A stretch of DNA of 38,008 bases from Candidatus Omnitrophota bacterium (GTDB taxonomy: Bacteria; Omnitrophota; Gorgyraeia; Gygaellales; Profunditerraquicolaceae). The notes below the pieces were generated by a model. It was given only the letters and a program-made list of their open reading frames with translations, ran no database searches and was not told the origin of the DNA. The translations under genes were made by a program, and so were the position numbers. Positions within the stretch are counted from its first letter, which is position 1; each line of letters begins with the position of its first letter. Of the stretch, positions 37,492 through 38,008 are shown piece by piece. The stretch lies in contig JAQTQC010000010.1 in assembly GCA_028712505.1 (NCBI GenBank), forward strand, positions 1 to 38,008, given 5' to 3'.

Positions 37492-38008
37492 TTATTTCTT
37501 ACCGGCAAGTATTTTAGATATTTTCCTAACCACCTGTTTAACCGATAAACCCGATGTTTCAACCACTTTATCAGCCTGCATATAATAAGGTGCGCGCATC
37601 TTCAGTAAAAGCTCGATGCGTTTTTTCGGTTTATCTACATTCAATAGCGGACGGCCGCTATTGGAAGAAACCCTTTTTAATATTTCTTCGGGGGTAGCAT
37701 TCAAGCAAATCATTACCCCGGTTTTCTTCATCAGTCTGACGTTGTTCTTGTCCAAAACCACTCCGCCGCCGCAGGCAACCACAAACTTCTTCTGGGTAGA
37801 GACCTGACTTAAAATCTTTTTCTCGATTTTACGGAAATACGCCTCTCCGTCTTTGGCAAAGATATCCACAATCCTGCGTTGTTCCTTTAATTCGATCAAT
37901 TCATCCAGGTCAACAAAATTCCACTGCTTTCGGCTATCGGAGGCCGAACCACAGCTATCTAGCTTGCGGCTTCGGCTATCGGAGGCCGAACCACAGCTAT
38001 CTAGCTTG
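37492..38008 (-). CDS. aroK: Shikimate kinase, 5'-incomplete, with in-frame repeat at visible N-terminus
   Basis: The core of shikimate kinase is clear: FVDLDELIELKEQ, IFAKDGEAYFRKIEK, VACGGGVVL, SGRPLL for the Arg lid, and MRAPYYMQADKVV. This phosphorylates shikimate in aromatic amino-acid synthesis. The frame stays open to the window edge. A TTG at 37899 is the first possible start inside the well-conserved part but would remove the DLD aspartates' partner sequence and the P-loop. Upstream of NFVDLD one expects about 12 residues and then GxxGxGKS/T. The visible 28 codons before it instead encode two copies of a 14-residue repeat (KLDSCGSASDSRSR) without a P-loop. The gene may carry an in-frame insertion, or be broken. 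The P-loop could lie outside the window. Confidence 0.85.
   Translation of the reverse strand, partial: KLDSCGSASDSRSRKLDSCGSASDSRKQWNFVDLDELIELKEQRRIVDIFAKDGEAYFRKIEKKILSQVSTQKKFVVACGGGVVLDKNNVRLMKKTGVMICLNATPEEILKRVSSNSGRPLLNVDKPKKRIELLLKMRAPYYMQADKVVETSGLSVKQVVRKISKILAGKK
37929..38008. repeat. 42-bp palindromic tandem repeat inside the shikimate kinase frame
   Basis: Unit 1 is 37929-37970; unit 2 starts at 37971 and is cut by the window end, with identical bases over the 38 visible. Each unit has two inverted repeats: TTCGGC tatcggag GCCGAA and AGCTA tc TAGCT. The period of 42 bp equals 14 codons, so it keeps the shikimate kinase frame open on the minus strand. The copy number is unknown because the array runs off the window. 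Confidence 0.9.

Follow-up and report, generated by a model that had tools for sequence, protein, structure and literature searches.

A dispersed 42-bp palindrome lies in frame within aroK and other core genes of Omnitrophota

The aroK locus

The DNA analysed here (the window, 38,008 nucleotides) comprises bases 1–38008 of the 51,959-bp scaffold C9 in a 1.4-Mb, 42-contig genome of a Candidatus Omnitrophota bacterium. The window ends inside aroK, which encodes shikimate kinase (Table 1), and a sequence with a 42-bp period, present twice in tandem, fills its last 84 bases (TRF: 100% matches). The 22-bp core of this repeat has a chance expectation of 0.00 in shuffled windows. An earlier reading, made from the sequence without database searches (the sequence-only reading), had described two identical 42-bp units of 14 codons each without a stop, and this description holds: in the minus-strand frame of aroK the units are stop-free, encode KLDSCGSASDSRSR and KLDSCGSASDSRKQ and are identical over 38 bp. 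The two hairpins that it assigned to each unit, AGCTA..TAGCT and TTCGGC..GCCGAA, are also present. Its start position of 37929 has to be moved, as the register of the wider family gives the unit boundaries listed in Table 1.

Table 1. Positions of the palindromic element and associated features (window coordinates, except for the nested copies)
Feature	Position	Strand	Basis
aroK, in-window part	37492..38008	-	ORF calls; Pfam SKI E 6.5e-40; sole SKI match over cut-off
Palindromic element, unit adjoining kinase core, encodes KLDSCGSASDSRKQ	37925..37966	-	R1 match 55.5 bits, E 7.8e-14
Second tandem unit, encodes KLDSCGSASDSRSR	37967..38008	-	R1 match 58.7 bits, E 1e-14
Main hairpin, unit 1: TTCGGC-8-nt loop-GCCGAA	37929..37948		Sequence; pairs supported by covariation, 72 copies
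Main hairpin, unit 2	37971..37990		Sequence; covariation across 72 copies
Nested copies	L248:2602-2694 (G010); L073:1401-1535 (G394)		

Is the gene intact? The sequence-only reading reported that no GxxGxGKS/T motif occurs in the 30 visible codons upstream of FVDLD, which is true of those codons but not of the gene. It proposed looking for the motif beyond the window edge, and the P-loop GFMGTGKS is found there in the aroK frame. The window is followed by exactly 100 N (38009–38108), then by the identical 80 bp of the repeat, and then by the start of aroK, so that the whole ORF crosses the gap and reaches contig position 38262. Read across the gap, AroK is MNIYLVGFMGTGKSSVGRLLAKEKI-[KLDSCGSASDSRSR]n-...KQWNFVDLDELIE, with the start codon and the P-loop upstream of the array. 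The P-loop, the shikimate-binding DxD (FVDLD) and the GGG motif (ACGGG) are thus in one ORF. The features of a shikimate kinase are met: the motifs, the SKI domain and the kinase fold, the last via an orthologue from another species (genome G018). No second shikimate kinase was found in the genome, where only one SKI match exceeds the cut-off. Of the three options left by the sequence-only reading (a tolerated insertion, a destroyed gene or an assembly join), the first is favoured by the in-frame start and P-loop, by the lack of a second aroK, and by a gap-free insertion at the same nucleotide in G018. A destroyed gene is not favoured, given the in-frame start and P-loop and the absence of a visible break. 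Judged from its sequence, the inserted aroK carries no visible damage, and it is the sole shikimate kinase gene of the genome.

The third option, in which the repeat marks two contigs wrongly joined and aroK is uninterrupted in the living cell, has some basis: the 100-N gap is genuine and lies within the array, the contig ends flanking it overlap exactly over 80 bp, and another 100-N gap in the genome has an unmerged overlap of 127 bp. However, the aroK gap splits one genus-type AroK whose two parts share a frame, G018 has one unit at the very same nucleotide without a gap, and dozens of in-frame copies elsewhere are gap-free. We therefore give very little credence to an artefact. We infer that unmerged overlaps at scaffold gaps are a typical effect of short-read assembly. 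What does remain undetermined is the number of units in the window's aroK (two or more), because the gap falls within the array; there are two if the overlap is real, and more otherwise. Any whole number of units keeps the aroK frame. The gap bears on copy number rather than on the presence of the insert. The second gap (L147 = G000:C3:29995-33036, gap at L147:1544) adjoins a copy of the same element, and its exact 127-bp overlap leaves that stretch duplicated in the scaffold.

Structure and sequence of the element

The 42-bp unit consists of a small GCC..GGC hairpin and a larger GGTTTGGC..GCCAAAGCC hairpin. The consensus from 72 copies is CAAGCCAGAAGGCAGTGGTTTGGCTTCCGATAGCCAAAGCCA, with the translation KPEGSGLASDSQSH; its length is divisible by three and the KPEGSGLASDSQSH sense frame is free of stop codons. 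The stem varies in a compensatory manner, for example as TTCGGC/GCCGAA, TTTGGC/GCCAAA, TGCGGC/GCCGCA and TTGGGC/GCCCAA. Pair counting over the 72 copies supports both hairpins, with 97.7% of cells paired (versus 91.8% when shuffled) and 53 double-change cells (versus 14.3). As RNA, the pair of units in aroK folds at -39.2 kcal/mol (z -4.5). When five element-bearing loci were compared with Rfam, no family exceeded the gathering threshold for the element, the only match being a tRNA. One genome, G092, has a variant (ACTTTTGCCACAAGGC...; L050, L078, L080) with longer periods of 63 or 67 bp, also beside assembly gaps, and this may represent a sub-family that has a spacer of its own.

Dispersal across the Omnitrophota

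A covariance model of the element (R1) finds it in 82 of the 384 Omnitrophota genomes sampled, including all 18 sampled genomes of the window's genus. Simple pattern matching with a 26-mer at up to three mismatches finds it in 28 of the 384, and the reversed control pattern has no matches in the same genomes. The window's genome has 13 R1 matches at E < 0.01, corresponding to about ten sites. Four of these matches are in aroK, two on contig C3 are one site doubled by the assembly overlap, and the rest lie elsewhere, some of them degenerate; every copy outside aroK has at least three mismatches to the aroK unit. Two decayed copies in this genome lie antisense in a long SMC-type ORF (L151, G000:C23:21372-21455). 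Across 84,980 species, exact matches to the 22-mer occur in only two records, both from Omnitrophota, both within ORFs and in the same reading frame. The lack of matches outside the phylum in that scan rests on one sequence variant, and not on the commoner TTTGGC form. No element match was found in the phages, plasmids and viral contigs searched.

A more local explanation is that the array is an aroK minisatellite, expanded by replication slippage and unrelated to mobile elements. The tandem copies are indeed perfect, and no other copy in the genome is closer than three mismatches. Against this, homologous 42-bp units, mostly single, occur in unrelated genes of 82 genomes, the window's genome has about ten other sites, and copies are nested in one another. 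The dispersed single copies refute slippage as a full account, leaving it for the tandem step only, and a purely local origin is barely credible. The best explanation overall, and in our judgement a very probable one, is that the family is a real, dispersed set of small mobile palindromes and that the aroK array is one of its sites.

Host genes and reading frame

The sequence-only reading had suggested looking for the unit in other genes in the same phase, and the unit is found in conserved genes of Omnitrophota, mostly in frame +1. For an unbiased view of frame, insertions were collapsed in silico to empty sites (109 sites), 61 of which are spanned by an ORF of 200 codons or more. Frame +1, which encodes KPEGSGLASDSQSH, accounts for 47 of the 61, frame +2 for 6, antisense frames for 7 and frame +0 for 1. 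The lone case of frame +0, the stop-containing frame, lies between genes and does no more than provide a stop. This copy (L152, G000:C42:2200-2241) begins with a TAA that is the stop codon of an upstream glycosyltransferase-like gene; C42:2200 had been a candidate for a broken gene, and was rejected as such since the copy is intergenic. When sites are grouped into gene clusters, 45 of 68 have frame +1 exclusively (binomial p ~2e-16 versus 1 in 5). Thus, one of the six frames, that of KPEGSGLASDSQSH, is strongly preferred. Part of this bias could come from target choice rather than from selection.

Which genes carry the element? Hosts with Pfam matches mostly encode core enzymes, and a few encode membrane proteins (Lnt, MMPL). 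They include AroK, an Fe-S/EtfA fusion, ribosomal protein L25, ketol-acid reductoisomerase (ilvC), glycogen synthase, NadA, MnmA, LeuRS (leuS), sulfite reductase, hybrid-cluster protein, glutamate synthase, a UvrD-type helicase, PurL/PurS, TopA, Lnt, SecA, DnaA, a type II secretion ATPase, pyruvate kinase (pyk), phosphoglycerate kinase and DnaX. Insertion within conserved genes adds exactly 14 codons.

These data also bear on whether the element reaches the protein at all. In yeast mitochondria, byp elements are present in mRNA but are bypassed by the ribosome, and an element that is removed or skipped in a similar way would suit the strong hairpins and the insertions within conserved domains, including a 4Fe-4S dicluster region. 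Bypassed inserts need not preserve length, frame or the absence of stop codons, however, whereas the Omnitrophota element is always divisible by three in length, is read in an open frame and strongly prefers one of the open frames. Absence from the protein is consequently very improbable.

Recurrent and nested insertions

Where its AroK relatives read ..KKWNF.., G018, which belongs to another species, reads ..KKNRLESRGSASGSRSQWNF... A single unit in contiguous, gap-free sequence has here added a net 14 codons (42 bp), and it lies between AAGAA and GTGG. The array in the window's aroK occupies the identical nucleotide. In the AroK tree, G018 groups with the insert-free G005, while the window's genome groups with G009, G010, G017 and G004, all insert-free, and a single clade of inserted AroK is rejected (p-AU 0.0003). 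Similarly, in the ferredoxin-EtfA gene, eight genomes have the element at one exact codon between two 4Fe-4S motifs and 25 other aligned genomes lack it. This distribution requires a minimum of seven changes, and a single clade is again rejected (p-AU 2.6e-5). On this phylogenetic evidence, both aroK and ferredoxin-etfA may have received repeated independent insertions at the same site, or may alternatively have lost copies precisely. An old insertion that was precisely lost many times cannot be excluded from the trees.

In two genomes, the ferredoxin-EtfA gene has a full 42-bp copy nested within a second one, whose hairpin loop it interrupts (CCGA|TAGCC). Nesting is not a product of tandem duplication, which argues for mobility. 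Insertion flanks favour A|YAAR, and the bases at positions 1–3 past the junction agree with the element's own start more often than in shuffles (0, 4 and 11 of 500 come up to the observed values), which hints at a possible short target duplication.

Consequences for AroK

AlphaFold2 predicts the structure of the G018 AroK, with its one natural unit, at a mean pLDDT of 92.9. In this model the insert lengthens helix 1 and forms a loop ahead of strand 2, and the top Foldseek match is the shikimate kinase 4y0a (TM 0.86). Sequence alignment with solved kinases has one 14-residue gap, precisely at the insert. The single-unit insert is therefore predicted to sit in the surface loop that connects helix 1 to strand 2; this prediction is for G018, and not for the array of at least two units in the window. 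Translation and activity can only be inferred, because there are no expression or protein data for these uncultured bacteria. With that reservation, the inserted AroK most likely still works. By analogy with rickettsial guanylate kinase, in which a Rickettsia palindromic element (RPE) has been demonstrated to be tolerated (PMC2229807), the insert is probably tolerated, and the element appears to be read as a harmless 14-amino-acid loop in essential genes such as aroK.

Mechanism of mobilization

The sequences establish dispersal, covarying hairpins, an exact 42-bp gain relative to empty sites, a preferred frame, recurrence at the same sites, and both nested and head-to-tail tandem copies. How the element moves is a matter of inference. 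It would be non-autonomous and depend on an unidentified enzyme acting in trans, probably on a folded single-stranded form, and its preferred targets would resemble A|YAAR. Selection would then purge copies in a harmful frame or place, and the survivors would add a hydrophilic loop. In aroK, there may have been one insertion in the alpha1-beta2 loop that was later amplified in tandem.

Could the mobilizing enzyme be a RAYT (Y1) transposase, making the element a member of the REP family as in other bacteria? It is a short, dispersed hairpin that occurs in tandem or in groups. Opitutus terrae has intragenic REPs, and its GTAG-20 elements mostly have GTGG (PMC3733652); the Omnitrophota element has GTGG/ATGG at the hairpin foot. 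Y1 genes are also present in 72 of the 82 element genomes versus 305 of 384 overall (Fisher p 0.04), which is weak evidence because they are near universal. On the other hand, no copy of the element lies within about 1 kb of any of 30 Y1 loci, ten element genomes have no Y1 match (one of them, G120, has 16 copies), and copy number does not correlate with Y1 gene number (rho 0.12, p 0.29). Furthermore, GTAG is not found at the hairpin foot in any of 72 copies, and the GTGG/ATGG is paired in the stem rather than being a free tag. Mobilization by RAYTs is therefore unlikely, though it keeps a minor place among the possibilities.

A further possibility, which we put forward only tentatively, is that these are an undescribed class of mobile palindromes, probably still active and found phylum-wide, that uses an unknown single-strand mechanism to target A|YAAR and its own hairpin loops. 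Such a class would revisit the same nucleotides in separate lineages, and its translation-compatible length would make it a peptide loop in core enzymes.

Comparison with known systems

Translated palindromes of this kind are already known as RPE, WPE and intragenic REPs, and PARCELs are more distant. First, RPE-1 to RPE-7 of Rickettsia and the Wolbachia WPE are in-frame palindromes in conserved genes, with preferred frames and a location in exposed loops, and a gmk with an RPE insert retains activity (PMC2229807, PMC3767692). The Omnitrophota element shares these properties (palindromic, dispersed, in frame in conserved genes, preferred frames, exposed loops, and recurrence at the same locus in orthologues) but is 42 bp rather than 100–150 bp, has two hairpins, forms exact head-to-tail tandems and belongs to another phylum. 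RPE-4 and RPE-6 have a CGTC end (PMC3733652), which the Omnitrophota consensus lacks, and the exact 22-mer, searched as one variant across 84,980 species, does not occur in Rickettsiales. The likeness to RPE drawn by the sequence-only reading thus stands in principle, as the element is a palindrome scattered over the phylum and in frame within genes, where it is inferred to be translated, but in unit length, end motif and lineage it differs from the RPEs. Second, intragenic GTAG/CGTC REPs (Opitutus terrae, PVC-group) are also short hairpins, often paired and translated within genes (PMC3733652), but REPs are mostly head-to-head pairs, whereas the Omnitrophota element is head-to-tail, has no GTAG/CGTC tag and does not flank RAYT genes. 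Third, PARCELs are palindromic coding repeats, in tandem and horizontally spread (PMC2996958), but they are domains of surface proteins; the Omnitrophota element is a 14-aa unit in mostly intracellular core enzymes, and does not meet the PARCEL criterion of an amphipathic palindromic repeat domain of surface or membrane proteins. Fourth, as far as can be told from its citation in PMC2229807, Suyama 2005 concerns coding palindromes of Methanocaldococcus jannaschii, repeated palindromes fused in protein genes in an archaeon. The Omnitrophota family fails at least one testable defining feature of each of RPE/WPE, the REP/RAYT system and PARCELs.

No report of the element in Omnitrophota was found in the literature searched, and a survey of the phylum (PMC10066038) makes no mention of repeats or palindromes. 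Annotators should be aware that the element is the source of 14-aa repeats in enzymes of Omnitrophota and of some scaffold gaps. Until now, Rickettsia and Wolbachia, along with scattered intragenic REPs, have supplied most of the known translated selfish palindromes; the present family would extend them phylum-wide in the uncultured Omnitrophota. The dozens of empty and filled orthologous sites, together with the recurrent insertion points and the nesting, make movement, targeting and protein tolerance testable.
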